Shown one piece after another: positions 1,352-18,370 of a DNA stretch of 19,059 nt. The translations under genes and the position numbers were made by a program. Positions within the stretch are counted from its first letter, which is position 1. Every line of letters begins with the position of its first letter. The stretch is from a bacterium. GTDB lineage: Bacteria > CG2-30-53-67 > CG2-30-70-394. The stretch covers positions 1-19,059 of the forward strand of contig JAJRSX010000037.1 in NCBI GenBank assembly GCA_024278555.1, given 5' to 3'. Below the pieces are notes generated by a model. That model saw only the letters and a program-made list of their open reading frames with translations, was not told the origin of the DNA and ran no database searches.

Positions 1352-2326
1352 CTACTGCTTCCCGTACCACTCGACGAAGCGGCGGATCCCCTCGCGCATG
1401 GAGACCTTGGGCTGGTAGCCAAGGAGCCGCTTGGCCTTGGAGACGTCCGCAAAGGTGCGCGGTACGTCGCCGGGCTGCATGGGGAGCTGGTCGATGATCG
1501 GCTCCCTGCCCACCGCCTGGCCGATCATGTCGATGAGCTCGCGCAGGGTGGTCACCTCGTGCTCGCCGAGGTTGATGATCTCGTAGCCGAGCGGCCGGTC
1601 GATGGCGCGGATGAAGCCGTCTACGAGGTCGTCGATGTAGGTGTAGTCGCGCGAGGAGGTGCCGTCACCGAACATCTTGATCGGCCGGCCCTCGAGGATG
1701 GCGCGCAGGAAGAGGTGGATCGCCATCTCCGGCCGCTGGCGCGGACCGTAGACGGTGAAGGGGCGGAGGCAGGTGATATTGAGGCCGAAGAGGTGGTGGT
1801 AGGTGTGGGCGATGAGCTCACCCGCCCGCTTGGTGGCGGCATACGGGGAGATCGGGTAGTTCACCGGGTCGTCCTCGGCAAACGGCACCTTCTCGTTCTC
1901 GCCGTAGACCGACGACGACGAGATAAAGACGAAGTTCGGGACCTCGTGGTGGCGTGCCACCTCGAAGAGGTTGTTCGACCCCTCCACGTTCACCTTCTGG
2001 TAGAGGAGGGGCTCGACGATCGACGGCCGTACCCCGGCGCGGGCGGCGATGTGGATCACCACGTCGACCTGCTCCTCGTCGAAAAGGCGCTGCAAGAGCG
2101 GCAGGTCACAGATGTCACCCTCCACCAGGCGGTACCGATCGGAGGTGAGGGCCGCCTCGATGTTGCGCCGCTTGATCGCCGGGTCGTAGAAGTCGTTGAA
2201 GTCGTCGATGCACACAACCCGGTCGCCGCGCTCGAGGAGCCGATCGGTGAGGGTGGAGCCGATAAAGCCGGCACCGCCGGTAACAAAGATGGTCTTCGGA
2301 CCTTCGGGGAGGGGACGGCTGGCCAT
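1352..2326 (-). CDS. UDP-glucuronate 4-epimerase-like SDR enzyme
   Basis: This is an extended short-chain dehydrogenase/reductase of the nucleotide-sugar epimerase class. It probably interconverts UDP-glucuronate and UDP-galacturonate, or a related sugar, for surface polysaccharide in the cytosol. From ATG 2326 (GGAG five bases upstream) it has 324 residues. It shows the NAD-binding GGAGFIG (17-23), the acidic DDF after strand 2 (41-43), the SSSSVYG segment (137-142), catalytic YxxxK as Y162-K166 in SPYAATK, and LRPFTVYGPRQRPEMA (187-202), typical of the UDP-glucuronate epimerase group. A longer in-frame start at 2389 exists, but its extra N-terminus looks non-native. It is divergent from the brnT-like gene. 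Family confidence is high; exact substrate is moderate. Confidence 0.9.
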   Translation of the reverse strand: MASRPLPEGPKTIFVTGGAGFIGSTLTDRLLERGDRVVCIDDFNDFYDPAIKRRNIEAALTSDRYRLVEGDICDLPLLQRLFDEEQVDVVIHIAARAGVRPSIVEPLLYQKVNVEGSNNLFEVARHHEVPNFVFISSSSVYGENEKVPFAEDDPVNYPISPYAATKRAGELIAHTYHHLFGLNITCLRPFTVYGPRQRPEMAIHLFLRAILEGRPIKMFGDGTSSRDYTYIDDLVDGFIRAIDRPLGYEIINLGEHEVTTLRELIDMIGQAVGREPIIDQLPMQPGDVPRTFADVSKAKRLLGYQPKVSMREGIRRFVEWYGKQ

Positions 2327-2464
2327 GGGGGCTCCGGGGATGGGGGCAAAAAAGGAACGCGCAGCGGGCCGGGTTCTGAACCATCGCAACCACCAGCGTC
2401 AAGGTCGCCTTCGCGGGTAAATCGCCGAGGAACAGGGTGAGCTTTGAAGGTTGGCTCTGGATTC

Positions 2465-2491
2465 CAGTGTATACTACGATAACATACACTG
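2465..2491. promoter_or_regulatory. Operator-like palindrome and promoter of the brnT-brnA pair
   Basis: A perfect 8-bp inverted repeat, CAGTGTAT (2465-2472) and ATACACTG (2484-2491), is separated by 11 bp and ends directly at the toxin ATG (2492). A TATACT box (2470-2475) overlaps the left half-site. Candidate -35 hexamers TTGAAG (2444) and TTGGCT (2451) are poorly spaced, so the exact promoter is unsure. BrnTA modules are known to be repressed by their antitoxin, and this placement fits a repressor covering the promoter. The short or absent leader is notable. Confidence 0.6.
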
Positions 2492-2794
2492 ATGATCGAC
2501 CTCCAACGGATCGCGGGCTTTGACTGGGATACGGGCAACGAACGGAAAAATGCCGACAGCCACCAGGTTTCCCAAGCTGAAGCGGAGCAGCTTTTCTTTC
2601 ACGAACCGCTGTTGATCACCGTGGACATGTCACACAGTCGGCAAGAGACGAGGTACCACGCACTTGGCCAATCAGCCGCGGGCCGGTTGCTCCATGCCAC
2701 ATTCACCCTTCGTTTCGAAGACACAAAAATCCGCATCATCTCCACGCGGGACATGTCTCGCAGAGAGAGGAGGCTCTATGAGCAGGCGTCGTAA
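2492..2794 (+). CDS. brnT: BrnT-family toxin
   Basis: This 100-residue protein matches the BrnT family of RelE-fold ribonuclease toxins, which cleave RNA in the cytosol and are neutralised by a DNA-binding BrnA antitoxin. The family pattern is visible: an N-terminal FDWDTGNERKNADSHQVS segment (10-27) where the family has FxWDxxKxxxNxxKHGVS, the EAEQLFF block (30-36), and the C-terminal RIISTRDMSRRERRLYE (81-97) that carries conserved Arg residues. The usual Lys-His of the KHGVS motif appears as SHQVS, so the His is retained. Its last 17 bp overlap the next gene, which indicates translational coupling. ATG 2492 is the first start after the promoter palindrome. Confidence 0.88.
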   Translation: MIDLQRIAGFDWDTGNERKNADSHQVSQAEAEQLFFHEPLLITVDMSHSRQETRYHALGQSAAGRLLHATFTLRFEDTKIRIISTRDMSRRERRLYEQAS

Positions 2795-3050
2795 ACCCAT
2801 CCCGACGTTCAAAAGCGAGGCGGAAGAGCGGCTCTTCTGGGAGAGCCACGACTCCGCGGACTACCTCGACTGGAGCCAGGCGCAGGGCATGACACTGCCC
2901 AACCTGAAGCCGTCGACCAAATCGATCTCGATTCGTCTGCCCGTCGACCTACTGGAACGAATCAAGGTCGAGGCCAACCGCCGCGACGTCCCCTACCAGT
3001 CGCTCATCAAGATCTGGCTCAGTGAGCAGATCGGCAAGAAGGCTGCCTGA
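2778..3050 (+). CDS. brnA: BrnA/CopG-type antitoxin
   Basis: This 90-residue antitoxin pairs with the preceding toxin and probably represses the operon. The N-terminal part has the toxin-contact region (EAEERLFWESHDSADYLDW, 14-32). The C-terminal half (about 48-84) is a ribbon-helix-helix domain with the strand SISIRLP followed by helices LLERIKVEANRRD and PYQSLIKIWLSEQI, as in CopG-type antitoxins. The ATG at 2778 is preceded by a strong ribosome-binding site, AGAGGAGG, and lies inside the end of the toxin gene in another frame. Order toxin-antitoxin with a short overlap is standard for BrnTA. Confidence 0.9.
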   Translation: MSRRRKPIPTFKSEAEERLFWESHDSADYLDWSQAQGMTLPNLKPSTKSISIRLPVDLLERIKVEANRRDVPYQSLIKIWLSEQIGKKAA

Positions 3051-3059
3051 TCTCTCCTT

Positions 3060-3178
3060 GGGGAAGAGAAGGAGATGGCGCCTGCCGTGCTTCAAGCAAC
3101 AACGGGGTCAGGGTCGCTCGCTTAGCCCAAAGGACACCCCCTACTTCCGTGCCTTTCCGTGGATTCCGTGGCTGAAAA
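3060..3178. repeat. Truncated copy of the CACGGAA-family element
   Basis: From about 3070 to 3173 this resembles the interior and right arm of the complete element at 1126-1294. Shared blocks include TGGCGCC, ACGGGGTC, GCTCG and the arm CTTCCGTGCC..TTCCGTGG (3144-3173). The left arm is missing; in its place the end of brnA lies only 20 bp away. A small inverted repeat CTCCTT/AAGGAG (3056-3075) sits at the broken end. This suggests a 5'-truncated relic, or insertion next to the toxin-antitoxin module. Confidence 0.7.
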
Positions 3179-3244
3179 TCGCCTTCCGGGCTCACCTCGG
3201 CATTGCGTTGCACCACCGGTGACGCTTGTCCCCCGACCATCCAC

Positions 3245-3362
3245 GTATCTGCGTCCCCGCGCCTCCGCGCGAGCATCACCTTCACCCAGATGCAGGAGCC
3301 GCCCATGCGGCAATTGCTCTACGGAACTCTCTTGCCCCCAAGCGCCCCCGTGTCCCCCGTGG
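3245..3362. repeat. Further repeat arms: CTGCGTCCCCGCGCC and CACGGGG-family right arm
   Basis: Two more repeat relics fill the convergent gap. Around 3249-3275 there is a GCG-word stretch related to that at 1006-1060, on the opposite strand. At 3332-3362, TTGCCCCCAAGCG then CCCCCGTGTCCCCCGTGG is the right-arm form of the palindrome at 7127-7274. It includes the conserved TTGCCCCC edge, which on the other strand is the GGGGGCAAG edge seen at 7148, 11529 and, in shorter form, 941. No gene is seen in 3051-3372. Confidence 0.6.
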
Positions 3363-3372
3363 TCAAGCCGCC

Positions 3373-4074
3373 CTACGCCCCCCCTGCCAGGTAGTCGCGC
3401 AGCGCCGCGGCCACCTCGCCCTCGGGCCGCGCCTCCAGGCCGAAGTGCTGGAGGATGGCGATGGTGGCACCGCGGCCGGGCTCGCGCGGCATGCCGTGGT
3501 GGGCGGTGAAGCGCAGGAGGTTGTGGAGGGTGTGGAGGAGGAGGTGGCTCCGGTCGAGGTCGTCGACGTCGAAGGCAGCCTCGTACCAGACCACCAGGGA
3601 AGTTGTAGCGACACGACGCAACTCCGGGGTATCGATCGCCACGGGGGCGAAGCGGGTGGTCTCGCCGTACCAATGGCCGCCCGGCAGGGCAGGCTCGCGC
3701 CGCCGGACGAGAGTCGACTCCACCGACCATGCCGTCTCCCGCGTCTCCACCAGGTCGCCCAGCCAGTCGCGCAGGAGGGTCTGACGCAGAAAGCGCGCCG
3801 CCGCCAACTCCTCCGCCTCGAACTTGTTCAGCTCCGAGACCGCCTTCTCCAGGGCCTCGCACAGGAGGCGGGCGTGGTGGCCGCCGGTGGCGATGAGGAG
3901 GCGCTCGAAGTAGGCAAAGAAGGCGATTGCCAGGGGGCGGCCGTGGAGCGTCCCCTCCACCCGCCAGCCGTCGCCGTCGAGGGTCAGGCGTGCCGTCCCC
4001 ACCTCCGCCGGTGTCGGAGTGAGGCGGCGGATGAGGCGGCGCAGGGCGCCGCGTGGTTGATCGGTCTTACTCAT
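3373..4074 (-). CDS. Conserved-looking protein of unknown function
   Basis: The frame encodes 233 residues from ATG 4074, with a good ribosome-binding site (GGAGG, five bases upstream). I do not recognise a family. It is soluble, with no signal peptide or membrane span. A basic N-terminus (GALRRLIRRLTP, 9-20) leads into a possible beta-rich region around 26-60 (LTLDGDGWRVEGTLHGRPLAIAF). Predicted helices rich in Ala, Leu and Glu then alternate with an aromatic segment near HWYGETTRF (about 134-142). Codon use (G/C in third position) matches its neighbours, so it is probably a real gene. It is divergently transcribed from the HAD phosphatase across 71 bp, so co-regulation is possible but unproved. 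Confidence 0.75.
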   Translation of the reverse strand: MSKTDQPRGALRRLIRRLTPTPAEVGTARLTLDGDGWRVEGTLHGRPLAIAFFAYFERLLIATGGHHARLLCEALEKAVSELNKFEAEELAAARFLRQTLLRDWLGDLVETRETAWSVESTLVRRREPALPGGHWYGETTRFAPVAIDTPELRRVATTSLVVWYEAAFDVDDLDRSHLLLHTLHNLLRFTAHHGMPREPGRGATIAILQHFGLEARPEGEVAAALRDYLAGGA

Positions 4075-4145
4075 GGCATCCTCCGCCTCCGCAGGGGCGG
4101 TAGCTTATCCGCCCCGACGCCACCGCGCACCGCACCACCGCATCC

Positions 4146-4772
4146 ATGGCCCACGCCCTCCTCCTCTGGGACCTCGGTAACGTCCTCGTCCGCGTCGATC
4201 CGGTGCGCGCCTGCCTCGCCGCCACCGGCGGCGACCGGGCCGCCGCCGAGGCGCTGGTCGAGGCGGTGGTGGACTCGCCCGCCCACGACGCCTTCGAGGC
4301 GGGGCGGATCGACGCGCCGGGCTTCCACGCCGCCCTGGTGGAGGCGGGGCTCATCGACCTCGACCTCGATGGCTTCTGCCACCTGTGGACCGACATGTTC
4401 ACCCTCGACGAGACGGCCCTCGCGCTTTTGCAGGCGGCGGCGCGCCGCCGTCGCTGCTGGCTCCTCTCCAACACCGACCCCCTCCACTACCCGTGGATCA
4501 CCGGCCGCTGGCCGATCGAGCCGTCGCTGGCCGGCGCCACCCTCTCCTTCCGCGTGGGCGCGCGAAAGCCGGACGCCGCCATCTACCGGGCCGCCCTGGA
4601 GGCCGCCGGGGTGGCGCCGGGAGAGGCCGCCTTCATCGACGACCGGCCGGCCAACGTCGCCGCTGCCCGCGCCCTGGGGATCGACGCGGTCGTCTACACC
4701 GGTGGGGCAAAGCTGAAGCAGTGGCTGCAGGCGGCCGGCGACCTCACCGAACAAGGGCAGGATGGTCGCTGA
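4146..4772 (+). CDS. HAD-superfamily hydrolase, YihX-like phosphatase
   Basis: This 208-residue haloacid dehalogenase-like enzyme probably hydrolyses a small phosphate ester in the cytosol. Motif I is WDLGNVLV with nucleophile D9. The position two residues on, usually an Asp acting as general acid, is G11, as in the DLGNV sub-group that includes E. coli YihX (alpha-glucose-1-phosphate phosphatase). Motif II is LLSNTD (about 110-115), motif III is GARKPDAAIY (about 139-148, catalytic Lys), and motif IV is FIDDRPANV (about 165-173). An all-helical cap lies between motifs I and II (about 18-90), typical of subclass I. Start ATG 4146 has no clear ribosome-binding site. Substrate is not deducible. 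Confidence 0.88.
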   Translation: MAHALLLWDLGNVLVRVDPVRACLAATGGDRAAAEALVEAVVDSPAHDAFEAGRIDAPGFHAALVEAGLIDLDLDGFCHLWTDMFTLDETALALLQAAARRRRCWLLSNTDPLHYPWITGRWPIEPSLAGATLSFRVGARKPDAAIYRAALEAAGVAPGEAAFIDDRPANVAAARALGIDAVVYTGGAKLKQWLQAAGDLTEQGQDGR

Positions 4773-4833
4773 TCGGAGGTTGTCAGAGACCCTGGCGAAC
4801 AAACCGAGACTACGGTGAAGATTGGTGGCAAGA

Positions 4834-4965
4834 GACTAGGGGCTAGGGATTAGGGGAGGACGGCCCTTCGGGCCGGATACGTATGCCGATGGGACCTCAC
4901 TACAAAATGGATCGCCGGCCGCACAGCGGCCAACCAGCCCTGGTCCCTAATCCCTAGTCCCGAAC
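4834..4965. repeat. Palindromic element with CTAGGGATTAGGG arms
   Basis: The left arm GGGGCTAGGGATTAGGG (4839-4855) and the right arm CCCTAATCCCTAGTCCC (4945-4961) are inverted copies matching at 16 of 17 positions. A further CTAGGGG lies at 4836. The interior carries a tight hairpin CGGCCC-TTC-GGGCCG (4861-4875) and a second GGCCG/CGGCC stem near 4917-4931. It fills the gap between the HAD gene and fmt and could act as a terminator or be a relic of a small mobile repeat. No gene is seen in 4773-4989. Confidence 0.75.
4861..4875. terminator. Hairpin downstream of the HAD gene, possible terminator
   Basis: A 6-bp all G/C stem (CGGCCC..GGGCCG) closes a 3-base loop 89 bp after the HAD stop codon. 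There is no following T-run, so intrinsic termination is uncertain. The hairpin lies inside the larger palindromic element and may simply belong to it. Confidence 0.35.
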
Positions 4966-4989
4966 CCCCGCGAGCACAGCGAGCCCTCC

Positions 4990-5937
4990 ATGCGCACGAT
5001 CTACATGGGTACCCCCGACTTCGCCGTCCCGTCTCTCGACGCCCTGGTCGAGGCGGGGATCGACGTCCCCCTGGTGGTCACACGGCCGGACAAGCCGGCG
5101 GGCCGCGGGAAGCGGCTCCAGGCGCCGCCGGTGAAGCAGCGCGCCGAGGCCCTGGGGATCGAGGTCTTCCAGCCACGCACCCTCAAGGACGAGGCAGCCC
5201 AGGCGCGCCTGCGGGAGGTCGGGGCGGACGCCATGGCGGTGGTCGCCTTTGGTGCCATCCTCCCGAACGCGGTCCTGGAGATGACCCCCCTCGGGGCGGT
5301 GAACGTCCACGCCTCGCTCCTGCCGCGCTACCGCGGCAGCTCACCGATCAACTGGGTGATCGTCAACGGCGAGGGCGAGAGCGGGGTCACCACCATGTTC
5401 ATGGGCGAGGGGATCGACACCGGCGACATCCTCCTGCAGGAGCGCATCGCCCTCGACCCGCGGGAGACCGCCGCCACCCTCCACGACAAGCTCGCCGTCC
5501 TCGGCGGACCGCTCCTGGTGGAGACCCTGCGGCGGCTGGAGCGCGGCGACCTGACACCGACGCCGCAGGTGGAGGCGGACGCCCTCTACATCCCCAAGCT
5601 GACCCGCGAGGACGGCCGCCTCGACTGGAGCCGACCGGCCGAGGAGCTCGACCGCCGGATCCGCGGCTTCACCCCGTGGCCCGGCGCCTTCACCTTCCTC
5701 AAAGGCCACCGTCTCACCGTCCACGCCGCCCACCCGGTAGCGCAGCCCCCCGCCCAGGCGGCCGGTCAGATCGAGGCGGTGGAGGGCGGCGCGATGGTGG
5801 TGGCGTGCGGCGATGGCTGCCTGGCGATCACCGAGCTCCAGCCCGAGGGAAAACGGCGGATGGCGACGGACGCCTTTCTCCAGGGCCACCCGGTGGCGGT
5901 GGGCACCCCGCTGGGGGGGAGACCGCAGACGGACTAA
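4990..5937 (+). CDS. fmt: Methionyl-tRNA formyltransferase
   Basis: This 315-residue enzyme transfers a formyl group from 10-formyltetrahydrofolate to Met-tRNA(fMet) for translation initiation. The N-terminal catalytic domain (1 to about 205) shows MGTPDFAVPSL (6-16), N105 and H107 in NVHAS, the folate-binding SLLPRYRG (109-116) and D143 in GIDTGD. The Asn, His and Asp of the formyltransferase site are therefore all present. The C-terminal tRNA-binding OB-like domain begins near YIPKLTREDGRLDW (about 198) and runs to the end. Length is standard. It is not next to def or rsmB, its common partners: the upstream gene is a HAD enzyme and the downstream genes are of unknown function. ATG 4990 is the natural N-terminus. 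Confidence 0.96.
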   Translation: MRTIYMGTPDFAVPSLDALVEAGIDVPLVVTRPDKPAGRGKRLQAPPVKQRAEALGIEVFQPRTLKDEAAQARLREVGADAMAVVAFGAILPNAVLEMTPLGAVNVHASLLPRYRGSSPINWVIVNGEGESGVTTMFMGEGIDTGDILLQERIALDPRETAATLHDKLAVLGGPLLVETLRRLERGDLTPTPQVEADALYIPKLTREDGRLDWSRPAEELDRRIRGFTPWPGAFTFLKGHRLTVHAAHPVAQPPAQAAGQIEAVEGGAMVVACGDGCLAITELQPEGKRRMATDAFLQGHPVAVGTPLGGRPQTD

Positions 5938-6001
5938 TAACGACGGAGACGGTACACTTTTACCCAAAGGGAGGAGCCAACGTGAGGAAAGGAGAATCGA
6001 G

Positions 6002-6265
6002 ATGCCGTACACCTCACAGACGCTCATCAGCAAGATCCACCAGATGTACCCCACCATCCGCGACCACAACATCGAGGTGGTGGCGTGGCACGACCAGACC
6101 CAGGACACCTGGGTCATCACCCTGCAGAAGGGCGACCACACCCTGACCACCTACCTCGACGGCGCCGAAGCAGACCAGTGCATCGAGGGGGGCCGGTGCA
6201 TCTACCTCGGTCTCCACGTGGCCGAGTTCCTCGCCAACTTCGAGGACGAGCGGCTCGCCGCCTGA
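6002..6265 (+). CDS. Small conserved protein of unknown function
   Basis: The protein has 87 residues from ATG 6002, with a clear ribosome-binding site (AAAGGAG, seven bases upstream). It starts MPYTSQTLISKIHQMYPTI and contains WVITLQKGDHTLTTYLDGAEADQCIEGGRCIYLGLHVAEFLANFE in two adjoining blocks (about 37-81). Two Cys (about residues 60 and 65) flank an EGGR turn. I recall similar short proteins, with a KGxHxLTTxLxxxDAxxCxxGxxCVYLGxQIxxFxxNF pattern, in Desulfobacterota genomes. That is memory, not a search. No membrane segment or signal peptide is present. It is 64 bp after fmt, so possibly co-transcribed. Function is unknown. Confidence 0.85.
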   Translation: MPYTSQTLISKIHQMYPTIRDHNIEVVAWHDQTQDTWVITLQKGDHTLTTYLDGAEADQCIEGGRCIYLGLHVAEFLANFEDERLAA

Positions 6266-6369
6266 CCCTCTGCGGGCCGACCGGCCGAGGCAAAACCACG
6301 CAGGCCAGGAAGAGCGCGAAGGGGAGCAGCGGAAATAGCCCCGAGCGTTCCGCCGTCCTTCGCACCGCT

Positions 6370-6457
6370 GGAACACGAAACCACGAAAGGGGGAAGGCAC
6401 GAAAAACAACCGATTGACTTCTTTCGTGCTTTGAACTTTTCGTGCTTTCGTGTTCCC
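6370..6457. repeat. Complete palindrome, CACGAAA family
   Basis: Two arms of about 35 bp (6370-6404 and 6421-6457) form a near-complete hairpin with a 16-base loop. The left arm has CACGAAA at 6374, 6382 and 6398. The right arm carries the matching TTTCGTG words. The arms agree except in the stretch between the second and third words. As RNA this would be a strong hairpin about 100 bases after the stop of the 87-residue gene, so it could terminate transcription. It is AT-richer than the genome and lies in a 363-bp gap (6266-6628) where no gene is supported. Confidence 0.85.
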
Positions 6458-6628
6458 ACTCCCTCGAGGTCTCGGGAACATCGACTTTCTCGCCAGCCAT
6501 GATTTCCGCCGCTCCTCGAAGGGAAAGAGGGATTGCCCGAGCGCGGGCGCTCCGTACCGGCAGCGCGTGGTCCAATCCTCTCTACGCCGCTCCTTGTCCT
6601 CGCCGGGCCGCTCGCCGATCCTCCGGGT

Positions 6629-7117
6629 GTGCTCCGCCTCCCCACCACCGTCGCAATCCTCGTTGCCGTGCTCCTCTGCGCCACGCCCGCGGCGGCGGGT
6701 GACACGGGGTCGACCCTCAACACCCTGATCGAGGCGTCGCGCCTGCCGCGCTTTGCCCAGCCGGTGTGGGACCGGGCGGACCGCGCCGCCGAGAAGACGA
6801 CGATCAACGCCCTCACCACCCAGATCCCCGCACCCCTGCGACCGCCGGCGCGGATGATCCTCAAAGAGACCCTCGCCGGCCGCGTCCACCTCGCCCCCCA
6901 CTTCACCACCACCGAGATCGGCGGCCGGTCGATCCCCACCCTCGCCGACCTCGACCGCCTCCAGCGCGGCGATTTCTTCCGCTGGCAGCGCCTCCTCGGC
7001 CCCCTGCGCCTGCCGATCCCCGACCTCCCCCTGGTGGACATCGACATCCCCCTGATCGACAAGGTCGGCCACATCGGCCCGATCCCCATCGTGGTGCCGG
7101 AGATCTTGGTGCGGTAA
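6629..7117 (+). CDS. Secreted protein of unknown function
   Basis: I prefer the GTG start at 6629, which gives 162 residues beginning with a plain signal peptide: a hydrophobic core TTVAILVAVLLCATPAAA and a predicted cleavage after AAA (about residue 23). A longer frame from 6533 exists but would bury the signal peptide behind a Pro/Arg-rich leader. The mature part is soluble, with a helical first half (TLIEASRLPRFAQPVWDRAD, AEKTTINALTTQI). Its C-terminal 40 residues are rich in Pro, Ile, Leu and Asp (LPIPDLPLVDIDIPLID, then GPIPIVVPEIL), which suggests an extended interaction surface. No family is recognised. Codon use fits the genome. The start codon is uncertain because no good ribosome-binding site is visible. 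Confidence 0.7.
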   Translation: MLRLPTTVAILVAVLLCATPAAAGDTGSTLNTLIEASRLPRFAQPVWDRADRAAEKTTINALTTQIPAPLRPPARMILKETLAGRVHLAPHFTTTEIGGRSIPTLADLDRLQRGDFFRWQRLLGPLRLPIPDLPLVDIDIPLIDKVGHIGPIPIVVPEILVR

Positions 7118-7126
7118 ACCGCCGGA

Positions 7127-7274
7127 CCACGGGGACACGGGGGACGAGGGGGGCAAGAAAGCATTGGTGCCTCGGACACGCGAAGGAGGCATCTGCATTT
7201 CTCCCGGCAGTTGAGGACCGAGTAAGGGGACGACTGGCTGCCGGCCCCCCTCGCGTCCCCCGTGTCCCCCGTGG
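7127..7274. repeat. Complete palindrome, CACGGGG family
   Basis: The left arm 7127-7154 (CCACGGGGACACGGGGGACG then AGGGGGGC) and the right arm 7244-7274 (GCCCCCCTCGCG then TCCCCCGTGTCCCCCGTGG) are inverted copies. They differ only by a 1-base and a 2-base length change. CACGGGG words start at 7128 and 7136. The 148-bp element is non-coding and nearly fills the gap between the secreted-protein gene and the CopD-like gene (7118-7352). Single-arm relatives lie at 915, 3332 and 11507. Confidence 0.85.
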
Positions 7275-7352
7275 GGAATCCGTACGGGCTCCTTGGTTTG
7301 AGCCCCGACCTGCGCCAGCCTGCCGCGCTCAAACCACCCCTCGGGAACCACC

Positions 7353-7802
7353 ATGGCCATCGCCTACGCCCTCCACCTCCTCTCCGCGATCGTCTGGGTC
7401 GGCGGCATGTTCTTCGCCCACATGGTCCTGCGCCTCGCGGCCATGGAGCTGGAGCCGCCCCAGCGGCTCTCCCTCTGGCTCGGGGTCTTGCACCGCTTCT
7501 TCCTCTGGGTGTGGCTCGCCGTCATCTTCCTCCCCCCCACCGGCTACGCCCTCATCGGTGCCCACGGCGGCATGGGGGCGGTGGGGTGGCCGGTCCAGGT
7601 GATGCACCTCGTGGGGTGGGTGATGGTCGCCCTCTTCTTCTACCTCTTCTTCCTCCCGTACCGGCGGATGGAGACGGCTCTCGCCGCCGGCGATCTGCCC
7701 GCGGCGGCGGCGCAGCAGGCGGTGATCCGCCGAATCGTCACCACCAACCTCACCCTCGGCCTCACCATCTCCGCCCTGGTGGCGGCCGGGCGGTGGATGT
7801 AG
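7353..7802 (+). CDS. CopD-like integral membrane protein
   Basis: The 149-residue protein has about four membrane segments (roughly 3-25, 45-70, 80-100 and 125-147). It resembles the small CopD-domain membrane proteins seen in proteobacteria. The pattern AYALHLLSAIVWVGGMFFAH at the N-terminus, with H8 and W15, is characteristic; further His residues lie at about 47 and 86 (VMHLVGW). Such proteins are linked to copper or heme handling in the inner membrane, but the role of the short, stand-alone version is not established. ATG 7353 follows a weak ribosome-binding site. It converges with the polyferredoxin gene, 92 bp apart. Confidence 0.82.
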   Translation: MAIAYALHLLSAIVWVGGMFFAHMVLRLAAMELEPPQRLSLWLGVLHRFFLWVWLAVIFLPPTGYALIGAHGGMGAVGWPVQVMHLVGWVMVALFFYLFFLPYRRMETALAAGDLPAAAAQQAVIRRIVTTNLTLGLTISALVAAGRWM

Positions 7803-7841
7803 GGGCGGGAAGTGGTAGAGCCGGCTGCCGCCGGCGGAAGC

Positions 7842-7854
7842 GGCCCCAAGGGCC
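7842..7854. terminator. Hairpin between convergent genes, possible bidirectional terminator
   Basis: GGCCC-CAA-GGGCC forms a compact stem-loop in the 92-bp gap between the CopD-like and polyferredoxin genes. A second stem (GCCGGC..GCCGGC) lies just before it. There is no T-run on either side, so the assignment rests on position only. Confidence 0.35.
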
Positions 7855-7894
7855 GGCGGGGCCGAACGCCCCGATCGAGAGCGGGGGCTCGCTC

Positions 7895-8737
7895 CTACCG
7901 GTGACCGGTCGCCCGGGGCGGGTTCCTCTTTTCCCCGCCGGCGGCGAGTAGCGCAGCAGACCGCATCCGGTGGGCCCACCCGAGGGGCGGGGTCCCGTCA
8001 CGGCGGGCAAAGATGGCGTCGCAGGTGTCGAGGCAGGTACCGCAGGTGAGGCACTTGTCGGCAGCAAAGTCGTCGGCACGCGGGTCGAGCTCCACCGGGC
8101 ACGCCTTGGCGCAGGCGGCGCAGCCGCCACACACCTCCTCGGGGTCGGAGAAGGCGATTCGCAGGCGGTTGTCCTGGGCCATGATCCCGAGGTACCAGCC
8201 ATAGGGGCAGACCCGCTCGCACCAGAAGAAGCCGAGCCACAGCCCCTCGACGTAGAAGATCACGGTGAGCACCGCCGCCCACCGCCACGCCCCCACGAAG
8301 CCGGGCTGCCCCTGCTCCCAGAGGACCGAGAGGTGGGTGAACCAGTTGAGACAGATGAGGGCGCCGCCGAAGGCGACCGCCAGGGCGACCGGGTGGCGCA
8401 GGAGGCGGTGGCGCTTGCCCCAGCCGTGGTGGAGCCAGCGCGCCAGGCGGGCGAGCTGGCCGCCGGGGCACGACCAGCCGCAGAACATCCGGCCGAAGGG
8501 GTAGGTCGAGCCGAGGATGGTGAGGGCCGAGGCGACCGCAAAGAGGAGGAGCCCCTTCACCACCTTCAGGAGCGGTGCCGGATCACCACCGAGGTAGTAG
8601 ACCCCCGCCGGGATGTCGAGCTTGATCCAGTGGAGCGCCGGAATGGCGATGGCCACCGCCAGGGTGAGGCCGTAGGTGAGGCCGCGCAGGAGCTGGTACC
8701 GGTGGCCCGGACGGACCACAGAGCAGGAGACGGCCAT
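7895..8737 (-). CDS. NapH/RdxA-like membrane polyferredoxin
   Basis: This 280-residue inner-membrane iron-sulfur protein probably passes electrons from the quinone pool or serves in cofactor maturation. Starting at ATG 8737, several membrane segments (about 20-38, 60-78, 116-135, 152-172) enclose two CxxxCP-type motifs facing the same side: FCGWSCPGG (C86, C90) and WCERVCPYG (C173, C177). These are typical of the NapH/NosR/CcoG group. Two [4Fe-4S] clusters follow: C203, C206, C209, C213 and C229, C232, C235, C239. The stretch from 8962 to 8737 in frame overlaps hicB and is not credible. Without nap, nos or cco neighbours, the exact partner is unknown. Confidence 0.9.
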   Translation of the reverse strand: MAVSCSVVRPGHRYQLLRGLTYGLTLAVAIAIPALHWIKLDIPAGVYYLGGDPAPLLKVVKGLLLFAVASALTILGSTYPFGRMFCGWSCPGGQLARLARWLHHGWGKRHRLLRHPVALAVAFGGALICLNWFTHLSVLWEQGQPGFVGAWRWAAVLTVIFYVEGLWLGFFWCERVCPYGWYLGIMAQDNRLRIAFSDPEEVCGGCAACAKACPVELDPRADDFAADKCLTCGTCLDTCDAIFARRDGTPPLGWAHRMRSAALLAAGGEKRNPPRATGHR

Positions 8738-8758
8738 GGAGCACGAAGGGTGTCGGGC

Positions 8759-8792
8759 AGCCCGGGAGCAAACAAGCGCGGCGAGCCGGGCT
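8759..8792. terminator. Inverted repeat after hicB, weak terminator candidate
   Basis: AGCCCGG (8759-8765) and CCGGGCT (8786-8792) form a 7-bp stem with a 20-base loop, between the hicB stop and the polyferredoxin start, both on the minus strand. There is no T-run after it. It could separate the hicAB transcript from the next gene. Confidence 0.3.
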
Positions 8793-8799
8793 CGAAGTC

Positions 8800-9132
8800 T
8801 TACCTTCGCACCGCCCGGGACAAGGCTTCGGTAACCCACTGGTTGATGCTCTTGCCACTCCCACTGGCAGCGGTGGCCACGGCGGCGTGGATCTCGGGCG
8901 GGACACGCAACATGAGCCTTCCCGAGTAGCTCTTGTCGGGTACCCGTCCCACCTTCTCGCACGCCTCCAGGTAATCGTCCACCGCCTCTCTAAAGGCACC
9001 ACGAAGCTCTTCCACCGAGTCTCCGTGAAAACCAACAACGTCTCGGATACCGAGGACACGGCCAATAAAGCAATGGTCCTCTTCGCTGTACACGATGCTC
9101 GCCGCGTACCCTTTGTAGGTCATGGTGTTCAT
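8800..9132 (-). CDS. hicB: HicB-family antitoxin
   Basis: The 110-residue antitoxin neutralises HicA and probably represses the operon. The N-terminal part (4 to about 58) is the degenerate RNase-H-like HicB fold: YKGYAASIVYSEEDHCFIGRVLGI, then GDSVEELRGAFREAVDDYLEAC. The C-terminal part (about 70-108) is a ribbon-helix-helix DNA-binding domain: SGRLMLRVPPEIHAAVATAA, then GKSINQWVTEALSRAV. ATG 9132 overlaps the hicA stop as ATGA, which indicates coupled translation. A second in-frame ATG lies three codons on. Confidence 0.93.
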   Translation of the reverse strand: MNTMTYKGYAASIVYSEEDHCFIGRVLGIRDVVGFHGDSVEELRGAFREAVDDYLEACEKVGRVPDKSYSGRLMLRVPPEIHAAVATAASGSGKSINQWVTEALSRAVRR

Positions 9133-9383
9133 GGTTCAACCCCCGCCTTGGTCAAAAACTCTCGGGCATCGCGCACCTGGTACGGCTTCGTCTCCTTGGC
9201 TGGATGGGGACGATGGAAGGTCGCCATGACACCGTTAAGAAGAAATCGCACCCGGGAACCACGCCCCTCGATCCGTTCTGCCCCGAGTGAAAGGAACAGG
9301 GCTTCAATCCGTGCCCACTCCAGAGAGCTTGGCACCGGATCCGAAAAGATCGCGTCGAGGGTCTTGCGGTGCCTGCCCGTCAC
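9129..9383 (-). CDS. hicA: HicA-family mRNA interferase toxin
   Basis: This is a small double-stranded-RNA-binding-like ribonuclease that cleaves mRNA and is held inactive by HicB. The preferred start is GTG 9383, giving 84 residues: VTGRHRKTLDAIFSDPVPSS, then a helix with WARIEALFLSLGAERIEGRGSRVRF and the catalytic-His region ATFHRPHPAKETKPYQV. These match the HicA family closely. The frame also allows a GTG at 9413, which would add ten AT-rich residues and overlap the uvrB stop. Because paired TGATAGCA repeats lie in that stretch, the shorter start is more likely. It lies directly downstream of uvrB on the same strand. Confidence 0.9.
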   Translation of the reverse strand: MTGRHRKTLDAIFSDPVPSSLEWARIEALFLSLGAERIEGRGSRVRFLLNGVMATFHRPHPAKETKPYQVRDAREFLTKAGVEP

Positions 9384-9391
9384 GGCATGAA

Positions 9392-9412
9392 TGATAGCAT
9401 ATTTTGATAGCA
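9392..9412. promoter_or_regulatory. Paired direct repeats, likely hicAB control region
   Basis: TGATAGCA occurs at 9392-9399 and 9405-9412, starts 13 bp apart, in a short AT-rich island between uvrB and hicA. It lies just upstream of the preferred hicA start and resembles a binding site for a dimeric ribbon-helix-helix repressor such as HicB. The sequence could also contain the promoter (a TATGCTAT stretch on the minus strand). Confidence 0.5.
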
Positions 9413-11401
9413 CTATCGGCAGGCGAGCTGCCGCTGTTCCAGCTCCCGTATCCGGTCCCGGATGCGCGCCGCCTCCTCGAACTCCAGGGCCTTCGACGCC
9501 TTCCCCATCTCCACCCGCAACCGCTTGATGGTCTGCGGGATCTCCATGAGCGGCACGTAGTCCTCCCGCTCCTCGGCGGCGGTGGGGACGGTGACGTAGT
9601 CGTGTTCCGCCACCGCCTCGGCGAGGGAGGCGATCGCCTTCACCACCGTCGTCGGGGTGATCTGGTGCTCTTCGTTGTAGGCGGCCTGGATGGCGCGACG
9701 GCGCTCGGTCTCGTCGAGGGCACGCTGCATGGAGCCGGTAACCTGGTCGCCATAGAGGACCACCTGGCCGTGGACGTTGCGCGCCGCCCTCCCGATGGTC
9801 TGGATCAGCGACCGCTCGGAGCGGAGGAATCCCTCCTTGTCGGCGTCGAGGATCGCCACCAGGGAGACCTCCGGCAGGTCGAGCCCCTCGCGCAGGAGGT
9901 TGATACCGATGAGGACGTCGAAGACGCCCTCGCGCAGCTCCCGGAGGATCTCCATCCGCTCGATGGTGGGGACGTCGGCGTGCAGGTAGCGGCAGGCGAT
10001 CGAGAGCCCGGTGTAGTAGTCGGTGAGGTCCTCGGCCATCCGCTTGGTGAGGGTGGTGATCAGCACCCGCTCGCCGGCCTCCAGGCGGCCGCGGATCCGC
10101 TCCAGGAGGTCGTCCACCTGCCCTTGCGCCGGGCGGACCACCACCACCGGGTCCATGAGGCCGGTGGGACGGATGACCTGCTCCACCACGTGCTCCCCCG
10201 CCCGCTCCATCTCGAAGGGCCCCGGTGTCGCGGAGACATAGACCCGCTGCCCCACCCGTTGCTCGAACTCCTCGAAGGTGAGGGGCCGGTTGTCCAGGGC
10301 CGAGGGCAGCCGGAAGCCGTAGTCCACCAGGGTCTGTTTGCGGTTGCGGTCGCCGCGGTACATGCCGCCGATCTGCGGCACGGTGACGTGCGACTCGTCG
10401 ATCATCACCACCGCCCGCTTCGGCAGATAGTCCAGCAGGGTCGGCGGCGGCTCGCCCGCCACGCTACCGGTGAGGTGGCGCGAGTAGTTCTCGATCCCCG
10501 AGCAGTAGCCGAGCTCCTGGATCATCTCAAGATCGAAGAGGGTGCGCTGCTCCAGCCGCTCGCGCTCCAGGAGCTTGCCCTCACGCTCCAGCTCCGCGAG
10601 CCGCAGGCCGAGCTCCTGGCGGATCGACTCGATGGCACGCCGCTGGTGGGCCTCGTCGACCACGTAGTGCGACGCCGGGTAGATGGCGAAGTGGGTCAGC
10701 CGCGCCAGGGTGGCGCCGGTGAGGGGGTCGATCTCGCGAATCGAATCGATCGCGTCGCCGAACAGCTCGATGCGGATCGCCGTCTCCGCCGACGGCGGGA
10801 AGACCTCCACCACCTCGCCGCGGGCGCGGAAGCAGCCGCGCGACAGCTCGATGTCATTGCGCTTGTAGAGGATCTCCACCAACCGCTCGAGGAGGGCGCG
10901 GCGGCCGATCTCCTGCCCCTCCTCCAGGTAGAGGAGCATCCCCTGGTACGCCTCCGGCGAGCCGAGGCCGTAGATGCACGACACCGAGGCGACGATGACC
11001 ACGTCGTCGCGCTCCAGGAGTGCCCGGGTGGCGGCGTGGCGCAGCCGGTCGATCTCCTCGTTCACCGCCGAGTCCTTCTCGATGAAGGTGTCGGAGGAGG
11101 GGACATACGCCTCCGGCTGGTAGTAGTCGTAGTAGGAGACGAAGTACTCCACCGCGTTGTCCGGGAAGTAGCTCTTCAGCTCCGAGTAGAGCTGCGCCGC
11201 CAGCGTCTTGTTCGGCGCCAGGACCAGGGTCGGCCGGTCCACCTGCTCGATCACCTTCGCCATGGTGTAGGTCTTCCCGGAGCCGGTCACCCCGAGGAGG
11301 ACCTGGTGCTTCACCCCGTCGTCGAGGCCGCGCACCAGCGCCTCGATCGCCCGCGGCTGATCCCCCTGCGGCGAAAAGTCGGTGACCATGCGAAAGGGCA
11401 T
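9413..11401 (-). CDS. uvrB: Excinuclease ABC subunit B
   Basis: This is the damage-verifying helicase of nucleotide excision repair, working with UvrA and UvrC. From ATG 11401 it has 662 residues (E. coli 673). Visible are [14 protein letters not shown], Walker A GVTGSGKT (about 38-45), [20 protein letters not shown], the beta-hairpin region [16 protein letters not shown] that clamps DNA, the DEAD-like [10 protein letters not shown] (about 335-344), [11 protein letters not shown], helicase motif V/VI stretches [30 protein letters not shown] (split) and [11 protein letters not shown]-terminal UVR coiled-coil (about 625-660, [17 protein letters not shown]) binds UvrC. An upstream GTG/ATG extension to 11482 is not family-like. 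ATG 11389 is a possible alternative. Confidence 0.97.
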
Positions 11402-15889: not shown

Positions 15890-17746
15890 CTAGAAGGCAA
15901 CTCCGAAGAAGGCGCGCCACTCCGGAGCACCGATCCCCTTGTCGAGACCCCAGCCGAGGCCGCCGGTGAGGGAGAGCCTGCCGACCTTCAGGCCACGCCC
16001 ACCCACCAGGAGCTCCACCGGCGACGACTCCTCGTCGCCCCACAGGTGCGAGGTGGTGGTGCGGCTGTTGACCTCCGCGACCACCTCCGCGTCGCCGGCG
16101 ACCGATGCCACGACCCCGAGCCCCACGTCGACAAAGTCGGCGGTGGAGCCATTGCCGACACCGTCCACCGCCCGCCAGCCGGCGTTGGCAATCCACCGCA
16201 CCCCCTCGGTGACCGCACCGTCCATCACCAGACGGGCGCCATAGGAGAAGGTTCCGAGACCAAGAAGCTCGTCCTTATCCCCGGTGGGCAGGCCCACGAT
16301 GGGGACCAGGGCCAACCCTACCGCCTCTTTGGAGGGGTCCACGAGGCGGATCTTCGCCTCGATCTCCACGTCACCGAGGCGCCACGCGTCGACCCGCTCG
16401 ATGCCGGTGAGGCTCTTGCCGTCGATCAGATAATGGACCGGCAGGCGTACCCCCACATCGACGCCGTCCACCACGCCATAGGCGGCGGTGAGTTCCAGGG
16501 AGGCGAGGTCGATGAGCCGATCGTTCACGAAGTTGCCCCGCTCGTCCCCCACCACCACCGGATCGCGGGCGTAGGAGAGGAGGCCGCCGAAGGCCGCCGC
16601 GCCCGGGGCGAGGGGATGGCTGTCGTAAAGGGTGAAGGTGCCGTTGCCGTCCACCAGCGGACGCAGCCGCTGTGCCTCGATCCCCTCGGTCGCCCGTGCG
16701 CCGGAGGCGCCCAACAGAATGACGAGTGCGATCGCGAGCCAACCGCGACGACGGGCGACCACCGCCACCCCCAGGGGGAGGAGCAGGAAGGCGAGGTCGA
16801 AGAGGGAGCCTCCCGCCGCCCCGGGTACGGCCTGGCAGCCGTTGCCCTGGAGGCGGCGGGTGCGCGTCGTGGGGGCCGGAGCCGGAGGCGCCGGGGGAAG
16901 CACCACCGAGGTGGTCACCGCGGCGGTGTCGTTGGCGGCCACCGGATCGTTGGGGGTGCTCACCGTTGCCGTGTTGGCGGCATCACTGGCGGTGGCGTCG
17001 CTGTCGACGGTGGCGGTAACGGTCCGAGTCGTGGTCGCGCCCTCGGCGAGGGTGGCGATCGCCGGCCAGGTCACCGTCTGGCCGCTCGCAACCCCGCTGT
17101 CGCTCGCCGAGGCGAAGGTGAGGCCGGCGGGGAGCGCGTCGCTGAGAGCGATGCTGCGCGCGGTGCCGTGGCCGTTGTTAGTCACGGTCACGGTGTAGGC
17201 CACCGTGTCGCCGGGCTCTGCCGTCTCCACGTCCGCGACCACGGCCACCGCCACGTCGGGGGTGGAGTGGCCGATGACGAGCTGGCGGGCACCGCTGCCG
17301 GTCACCGTGGCCCCATCCACGGTGACCTCCATGGTCAGGGGGTCACCGTCAAAGGCCGGGGTGGCGAAGGCCGCCGCGGCGACGACCGAAGCACCTTCCA
17401 CGGCGGCTGAACCGCCACCGTCCGTACGGAAGAGGCGCACCTTACCGGGGGAGTTGTCGCTGGAGACCAGCCCCAGATCGCCCTCGTCCGTGAGATCGAT
17501 GCCGTAGCCGGAGCTCATGAGGCTGTCGCCGAAGCTCCCCCCGTCGGTGACCGTCGGCGGGTCCCCGGCGGTGATGTCGCTGATCTGCAGCCCCGAGGAG
17601 CCGAAGATGTGCGCCCCGTCCGGGGTGATCACCCCCCCGCGGTTGACCATCAAAAAGGTGGTGGAGGAGGCCGTGTCGTCGCTGGTGCGGACCACGTTGT
17701 TCGAGGCGTAGACCCAGGCGCCGTCGGGGGAGATCACCAACTCACG
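15890..17746 (-). CDS. C-terminal part of the interrupted propeller gene: DUF11, sorting signal, second signal peptide, outer-membrane barrel
   Basis: This continues the frame of the upstream gene directly after its TAG (17749-17747), with no frame change. Counting from the TTG at 17740: 1-110 finish the beta-propeller (VISPDGAWVYAS, VITPDGAHIFGS), and 163-275 form a DUF11 repeat (VTVTNNGHGTARSIALSDAL). A Pro-rich linker (280-292) leads to GC (C302), a membrane segment (312-328) and RRR (330-332), like MYXO/JDVT-type C-terminal sorting signals. A second hydrophobic stretch LAIALVILLGASGARA (335-350) then resembles a signal peptide. Residues 351-616 match the N-terminal barrel common in OmpA-family proteins of Myxococcota-like bacteria (QRLRPLVDGNGTFTL, VGVRLPVHYL), ending in a C-terminal Phe (FFGVAF) as outer-membrane barrels do. 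No convincing independent start is seen. Confidence 0.8.
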   Translation of the reverse strand, partial: RELVISPDGAWVYASNNVVRTSDDTASSTTFLMVNRGGVITPDGAHIFGSSGLQISDITAGDPPTVTDGGSFGDSLMSSGYGIDLTDEGDLGLVSSDNSPGKVRLFRTDGGGSAAVEGASVVAAAAFATPAFDGDPLTMEVTVDGATVTGSGARQLVIGHSTPDVAVAVVADVETAEPGDTVAYTVTVTNNGHGTARSIALSDALPAGLTFASASDSGVASGQTVTWPAIATLAEGATTTRTVTATVDSDATASDAANTATVSTPNDPVAANDTAAVTTSVVLPPAPPAPAPTTRTRRLQGNGCQAVPGAAGGSLFDLAFLLLPLGVAVVARRRGWLAIALVILLGASGARATEGIEAQRLRPLVDGNGTFTLYDSHPLAPGAAAFGGLLSYARDPVVVGDERGNFVNDRLIDLASLELTAAYGVVDGVDVGVRLPVHYLIDGKSLTGIERVDAWRLGDVEIEAKIRLVDPSKEAVGLALVPIVGLPTGDKDELLGLGTFSYGARLVMDGAVTEGVRWIANAGWRAVDGVGNGSTADFVDVGLGVVASVAGDAEVVAEVNSRTTTSHLWGDEESSPVELLVGGRGLKVGRLSLTGGLGWGLDKGIGAPEWRAFFGVAF

Positions 17747-18370
17747 CTATGCATTGCCCACCTCCCCGATGAAGGTGAGGCTCGTCGTGTCGAAGGCGAA
17801 GAGGCCGTTGCGGCCGGCCACGTAGACCTTGCCCCCGTCGGGGGTGACGGCGATCCCCTCCGGGGTGCCGGAGAGGTTGGTGAGGATCTCGGCGACCACC
17901 GAGTTGTCCGTCAGGTCTACCACCACGACTCCACCATCGTTGTCGCCGTCGGAGCCGCCGTTCTTCATCGCCACGTAGAGACGACCGCCGTCGGGGCTCA
18001 CCACCACGTCGTACGGCTCGTCGGTGGTCACCGCGGCTACATCGAGGTCGATGGTCGCCGCCACCTGCAGGGTGGCGGTGTCGATCACCGAGATCGTCCC
18101 CACGGTACCGCCGAAGCGGTTGGCCACGTAGACCCGACCGTTGTCCGGGGCGACGTCGATGCCCCGGGGCTCGGAGTCGACGTCGATCTGCGCCACCCAC
18201 CCGGGGGCATCCATGTCGAAGACCCACACCTGGTCGGAGTCGGTCGCCGAGACGTAGGCGAGGCGATCGCCCGGGCTCGGGGTGATATTGGCGGGCGGGG
18301 TTTGGGCCGCTACCGGGGCCGCCGCCAAGAGGAGTAACAACCAACACGCGCAGGAGCGAAAGAACTTCAT
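17747..18370 (-). CDS. N-terminal part of the interrupted gene: exported YVTN-type beta-propeller
   Basis: From ATG 18370, with an excellent ribosome-binding site (GGGAGGTG, about six bases upstream), the frame runs 207 residues to an in-frame TAG. A signal peptide (MKFFRSCACWLLLLLAAAPVAA, in two parts, cleavage near 22) is followed by YVTN-type blades with the repeat xPxGIxVxPDxGxVYVA: PRGIDVAPDNGRVYVA (68-83), PYDVVVSPDGGRLYVA (119-134) and PEGIAVTPDGGKVYVA (170-185). About four blades are complete. The remaining blades and all further domains lie after the stop codon, so the 207-residue product alone should not close a propeller. It is a nonsense-mutated gene, a readthrough gene or a sequencing error. 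Confidence 0.85.
   Translation of the reverse strand: MKFFRSCACWLLLLLAAAPVAAQTPPANITPSPGDRLAYVSATDSDQVWVFDMDAPGWVAQIDVDSEPRGIDVAPDNGRVYVANRFGGTVGTISVIDTATLQVAATIDLDVAAVTTDEPYDVVVSPDGGRLYVAMKNGGSDGDNDGGVVVVDLTDNSVVAEILTNLSGTPEGIAVTPDGGKVYVAGRNGLFAFDTTSLTFIGEVGNA

Follow-up and report, generated by a model that had tools for sequence, protein, structure and literature searches.

The window analysed here, a stretch of 19,059 nucleotides, probably carries the seam of a TraA/TraB-like fused gene (probability about 0.7). A surface protein, its Cys-containing sorting tail, a further signal peptide and an outer-membrane barrel would be made as one chain that is cut twice. The original prediction had read the segment as a Cys tail, a membrane span, RRR, a hydrophobic stretch, ARA and a barrel ending in Phe, and this order was recovered in a single minus-strand frame, with zero stops across the seam from 17740 to 15890 in the reading-frame translation of the window (Table 1). 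Codon usage backs the frame on both sides of the junction: the CAI of the DUF11, tail and barrel parts is 0.59-0.71, versus 0.18-0.38 in the other frames, while the short signal-peptide segment is ambiguous between frames. By itself, the window proves little about the seam, since 60 stop-free codons are unremarkable at the local G+C (P about 0.3-0.5). A chance open frame as the origin of the seam was rejected through its recurrence in other genomes, not from the window alone.

Table 1. Features of the fused locus and its surroundings, in the order of translation; positions are those of the window.
Feature	Position	Strand	Details
First signal peptide MKFFRSCACWLLLLLAAAPVAAQ	18302-18370	-	Strong Shine-Dalgarno GGGAGGTG before ATG 18370
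YncE-like beta-propeller, N-terminal half, 207 aa	17750-18370	-	TIGR02276 59.6 bits, cut-off 27.85; PF01436/PF10282 above cut-off
In-frame TAG interrupting the propeller	17747-17749	-
Remaining propeller region past the TAG	17258-17746	-	Open frame begins at TTG 17740
DUF11 domain	16913-17257	-	PF01345 79 bits, cut-off 24.6
Sorting-tail signature LQGNGCQAVPGAAGGS	16805-16852	-	Cys codon 16835-16837
First membrane span of the tail LFDLAFLLLPLGVAVVA	16754-16804	-
Candidate internal start GTG 16762-16760	16760-16772	-	Shine-Dalgarno-like GGGGGTGG at 16772-16765, 2 nt upstream
Predicted basic cytosolic linker RRRGW	16739-16753	-
Second signal peptide, h/c region LAIALVILLGASGARA	16691-16738	-
Predicted signal peptidase I site between GARA and TEG	16691/16690	-	Motif rule
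TraB-type outer-membrane barrel, 266 aa	15893-16690	-	Mature from TEGIEAQ, last residue Phe; NF033763 54.7 bits
Stop TAG of the barrel	15892-15890	-

Elsewhere in the window, short direct repeats with a 31-nt unit (TAAGGTAAAGAACTGACCCTGAGTTCCCCTG) and its derivatives occupy the left end (59-221). A dispersed element of 30-37 nt, TTCCGTG..TTCCGTGGATTCCGTGGCT, occurs in both orientations (217-246, 1126-1162, 1258-1294, and 3139-3174) and is possibly a small mobile repeat family. No tRNA or Rfam families were found in the window.

In the proposed mechanism, the ribosome would make a single chain covering the surface half and the barrel, and the first signal peptide would take the surface half out. 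The span of the tail would halt transfer and leave the Arg linker in the cytosol, and the second hydrophobic stretch would restart export. A sorting intramembrane protease would cleave beside the first span, the surface half would become anchored, probably by a lipid at the Cys, and signal peptidase I would release the barrel to the Bam machinery. The two halves would then act as partners, with the fusion yielding 1:1 amounts and joint delivery. The order of the parts, its recurrence and the relation to TraB are computational results; from them the two cleavages, the anchoring and the partnership are inferred.

The recurrence of the seam was traced through the barrel. A first contig scan with the window junction as the query found nothing, and a three-row alignment yielded two relatives, one MAG from the Oligoflexia and one from the Deltaproteobacteria. 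A first round with the barrel against 98 genomes gave four further matches inside very long frames, with the parts in the same order. With a profile from 12 barrels, searched in 146 genomes from the G035 phylum and 386 drawn from across the domain, 41 distinct in-frame junctions of Cys tail, basic linker, second signal and barrel were found. They fall into eight genome families (f1, f30, f35, f72, f159, f193, f242, and f252; the f30 cases include many close kin and are non-independent) and at least three phyla. Certainly distinct are the phyla of the window (eight species), of G077 (five species), and of G035, which also has bona fide traAB. Four of the five species in the G077 phylum carry the fusion, in frames of 2,245-2,674 aa at 37% G+C, and G040 has a fused frame of 3,336 codons at 44% G+C. 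The original prediction would have been refuted if this strain alone lacked a stop between the parts, which is not the case. The comparison of homologues proposed with it places the halves in separate adjacent genes in some genomes and in fused genes in many. A seam with a CTLNP-type tail was also seen within a frame of 8,019 codons (L081/L097, G438:C369).

The automatic classes of fused and split loci were checked by eye. L078 had been wrongly called fused and L018 was spurious; L051, L094, L107, L158, L160-162, and L166 are fused but had been classed as "none"; and the "split" rows L128, L130, L131, and L148 have non-Cys tails. In L130 (G329), L131 (G419), and L148 (G139), a separate gene of ~1,100-1,200 codons with a PEP-CTERM-like non-Cys tail precedes the barrel, so that the pairing of surface protein and barrel may extend to further sorting-tail types. 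For a tree of 83 barrels, made with a quick method and containing long branches, the minimum is eight switches between the fused and the unfused state, of which strongly supported branches force five; the count is possibly one too high, as L132 is labelled not fused in the tree yet is fused like its near-copy L133. Fusion and separation have thus alternated, as expected if both halves work together.

The linker between the two spans was analysed in 42 junctions (41 of the Cys type and one of the GlyGly type), a number that comes from a recount under a stricter seam test. It has 5-21 residues (median 12) and a median net charge of +4, versus 0 in the 15-residue flanks ahead of the first span and past the second; part of this excess is built in, as two basic residues are needed for a seam to be recognized. 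The charge pattern fits the positive-inside rule for a predicted hairpin with a cytosolic loop. ATG, GTG, and TTG are all absent from 15 of the 42 linkers and ATG from 31, which makes a separate initiation of the barrel impossible or unlikely there.

These linkers bear on the alternative of nested genes, in which translation of the barrel starts at a codon of its own inside the frame (in the window, GTG 16762-16760), and the longer frame simply happens to be free of stops. For the window, internal initiation at this GTG is possible: the product would begin with a textbook signal peptide, MVARRRGWLAIALVILLGASGARA, and GGGGGTGG lies 2 nt before the codon, although G runs are commonplace in the G+C-rich DNA of the window. 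Many fused homologues likewise have some ATG, GTG, or TTG in or near the linker, and traA and traB overlap as ATGA in the genome that has them split. Against nested genes stand the 15 start-free linkers, and neither a start nor a Shine-Dalgarno position is conserved among the junctions compared. At 37-44% G+C, moreover, stops arise easily, yet they are absent through thousands of codons. On balance, nested genes are an unlikely explanation. The polyprotein topology put forward in the original prediction is favoured by the comparison of genomes: by the linker charge of +4, the start-free linkers, and halves that are separate neighbours in some genomes and fused in many. It loses through the TAG in this copy, the possible GTG start and the lack of a clear myxosortase in the genome, and its cleavages are putative.

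The barrel is related to TraB. All 12 barrels of the profile alignment match the TraB model NF033763 (best E 4e-161), and the profile search recovers the window barrel among the TraB-like barrels. The window barrel itself covers profile positions 21-291 with an E of 4.4e-15 and has the N-terminal TraB-type barrel; its 54.7 bits compare with a cut-off of 700. The protein ends after the last strand of the barrel, and the C-terminal OmpA peptidoglycan-binding domain is absent. The description of the barrel as "OmpA-like" was imprecise, as no Pfam family matched it, including the OmpA families PF01389 and PF13505, whereas TraB did.

The predicted structure gives a further hint. AlphaFold reached a pLDDT of 31 from the single sequence; with three sequences, it gave an all-beta model of low confidence (pLDDT 43, pTM 0.45). 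In a Foldseek search with this low-confidence model, the 50 matches listed were all beta-barrels or barrel-containing complexes, none of them significant, and the best TM-scores among those listed belonged to FapF and a COG4313 channel. The barrel profile is also weakly similar to FapF (E 0.0044), and PF13557 was weakly matched in five relatives. Together, these matches weakly suggest a barrel of the FapF/COG4313 type rather than the 8-strand OmpA type.

In Myxococcus xanthus, traA and traB are separate genes with a 4-bp overlap (PMC3325183). The TraA/TraB pair (NF033759/NF033763) and the window share an exported protein with a Cys sorting tail (the receptor in TraA) and, immediately downstream of it, the coding sequence of an outer-membrane barrel; the barrels are homologous. 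They differ in that the pair is encoded by two genes, whereas the window lacks PA14, Cys repeats and the OmpA domain and scores far below the TraB cut-off. TraA and TraB are reported to occur in a 1:1 ratio, and a TraB that lacks the OmpA domain can still form foci and, together with TraA, adhere (PMC12045341). By analogy, this adhesion would fit a barrel-only partner in the window. Both arrangements are found side by side in G035, which has a true traA (1,126 bits, cut-off 750) and traB (999 bits, cut-off 700) as separate genes overlapping as ATGA, as well as two fused paralogues.

The closest described case is the Myxococcus family of MXAN_5598. This protein is described as carrying its MYXO-CTERM inside the chain, with an outer-membrane barrel and an OmpA domain after it, and its gene lies between ftsA and ftsZ; a gene fusion has been suggested and processing of the N-terminal part proposed (PMC11980579). 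The largest fused genes of G145 (L167, 7527-15599, minus strand) and G035 (L025) likewise lie between ftsA and ftsZ. Like MXAN_5598, the window combines a large surface region, a Cys tail, a span, a basic linker, a second signal peptide and a TraB-type barrel, and from the tail to the barrel these parts lie in one stop-free frame. In contrast to MXAN_5598, its surface part consists of a propeller and DUF11 and is interrupted by a TAG, the spacer from the Cys to the span is longer, no TSP3/OmpA domain follows the barrel, and the locus lies in another phylum and away from ftsAZ. The core idea has thus already been published for one protein; the breadth, the recurrence and the rhombosortase version described below appear to be new.

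The window tail (GNGC..LFDLAFLLLPLGVAVVA..RRR) presents Cys, span and Arg cluster in the order of MYXO-CTERM, but internal to an open frame. It matched neither the MYXO-CTERM models TIGR03901 and TIGR03382 above cut-off nor the GlyGly-CTERM model TIGR03501, and the nearest curated tail model was the MXAN_0125 family (11.7 bits, cut-off 65). A terminal counterpart exists in the same genome: an S8 protease with type-3 thrombospondin repeats (L114, G000:C207:24724-24837, minus strand) has a Cys tail at its true C-terminus. This tail reads GGGGGGCQAAGPVAPGAAW..RRKKGDRTLF-stop (in another excerpt, GGGGGGCQAAGP..RRKKGDRTLF) and ends six residues past RRKK. JDVT-CTERM/MrtJ and other Cys-type tails (Haft 2024, as cited in PMC11980579) share the Cys, the longer spacer, the span and the Arg cluster with the window. 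The fusion tails of G419 and G438 read CSLNP and CTLNP. The likeness to JDVT-CTERM/MrtJ ends where no model matches the window tail and the CPBP protein of the genome falls below the MrtJ cut-off. This protein is the only CPBP protein there and reaches 188 bits for TIGR03008 (cut-off 81), 25 bits for MrtJ (cut-off 75), and 15.6 bits for the Mrt core (cut-off 100).

No clear myxosortase (MrtX, MrtC, or MrtJ) for the Cys tail was found in the window's genome. This agrees with an unprocessed tail, in which the surface protein and the barrel would stay joined through a hairpin of the two spans, as one uncut, envelope-spanning protein. The insertion of a barrel through Bam requires a free periplasmic chain, which counts against such a hairpin. 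In the window, as in most junctions, the second hydrophobic stretch also ends in the A-x-A typical of signal peptidase I, and the Cys signature is present in the tail of all 41 Cys-type junctions; an uncut protein is accordingly very improbable.

The same genome holds a second fusion with another kind of tail. In an intact frame of 2,879 codons (L121, G000:C110:1-14500, frame 1478-10117, plus strand), PKD domains are followed by GRGGSGGIGG-span-RRR, a second hydrophobic stretch ending in PAAA and an OmpA membrane domain, for which PF01389 and PF13505 are both above cut-off. At 10114 begins a gene for a rhombosortase (TIGR03902 148 bits, cut-off 84), which overlaps the stop of the fusion by 4 bp. 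The tail has no Cys and reaches 12 bits for GlyGly-CTERM, below the cut-off of 15.5. Among the other 144 genomes searched, no comparable GlyGly-type fusion was found, with two weak barrel matches only. The GlyGly-CTERM/rhombosortase system thus shares the idea of a tripartite tail with the window, and its protease gene overlaps a fused GlyGly-type gene in the window's own genome. It differs in that the window tail has a Cys and that known GlyGly tails are C-terminal.

The window copy is interrupted upstream of the seam. The propeller had been described as in frame with the barrel, which holds only downstream of a TAG at 17749-17747 that had been missed and that interrupts the propeller. Tail and barrel share a frame that opens no earlier than 17740, without the first signal peptide and half of the propeller, and owing to the TAG, the complete surface half does not share this frame. 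Recoding of the TAG as a sense codon was considered and rejected: TAG terminates five neighbouring genes and is therefore a true stop in this organism. The copy may be non-functional or mis-sequenced, and possibly no active polyprotein is made here.

The TAG also raises the alternative of a decaying or mis-assembled locus, a pseudogene of a two-gene or fused locus, with both the TAG and the stop-free seam as signs of decay or error. The in-frame TAG is real, and the source genome is a draft of 3.06 Mb in 211 contigs, with the window as contig C6. The surface half has no homologue in the other seven genomes of the phylum, in which the barrel gave nothing beyond a weak barrel-only match in G006. 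On the other side, the TAG is a single lesion in the about 826 codons of the gene, none of the larger parts departs from normal codon usage, and the seam resembles intact fusions elsewhere, one of them in the same genome. Decay or error is a sizeable minority possibility for this copy, and it would leave the general reading of the seam untouched.

Read as the join of a surface protein to its own barrel, the segment may stand for a general class of envelope polyproteins, in which an internal sorting tail on the surface protein precedes the signal peptide of the barrel. Such a class would have arisen repeatedly in several phyla and would rely on sorting proteases of two unrelated kinds, one for Cys-type tails (CPBP) and one for GlyGly tails (rhombosortase), with both forms present in the window's genome; the chances of this wider claim are about even. 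Internal sorting tails have been regarded as rare oddities, with one protein discussed in the literature found. The seam in at least three phyla, fused and split and with two kinds of tail, suggests a recurring unit of a surface protein and its own barrel like TraA/TraB. Sorting proteases may thus take substrates with more protein beyond the span. The fusions point to many partners of surface proteins that can be tested, and they predict stoichiometric co-delivery of both halves from one chain.
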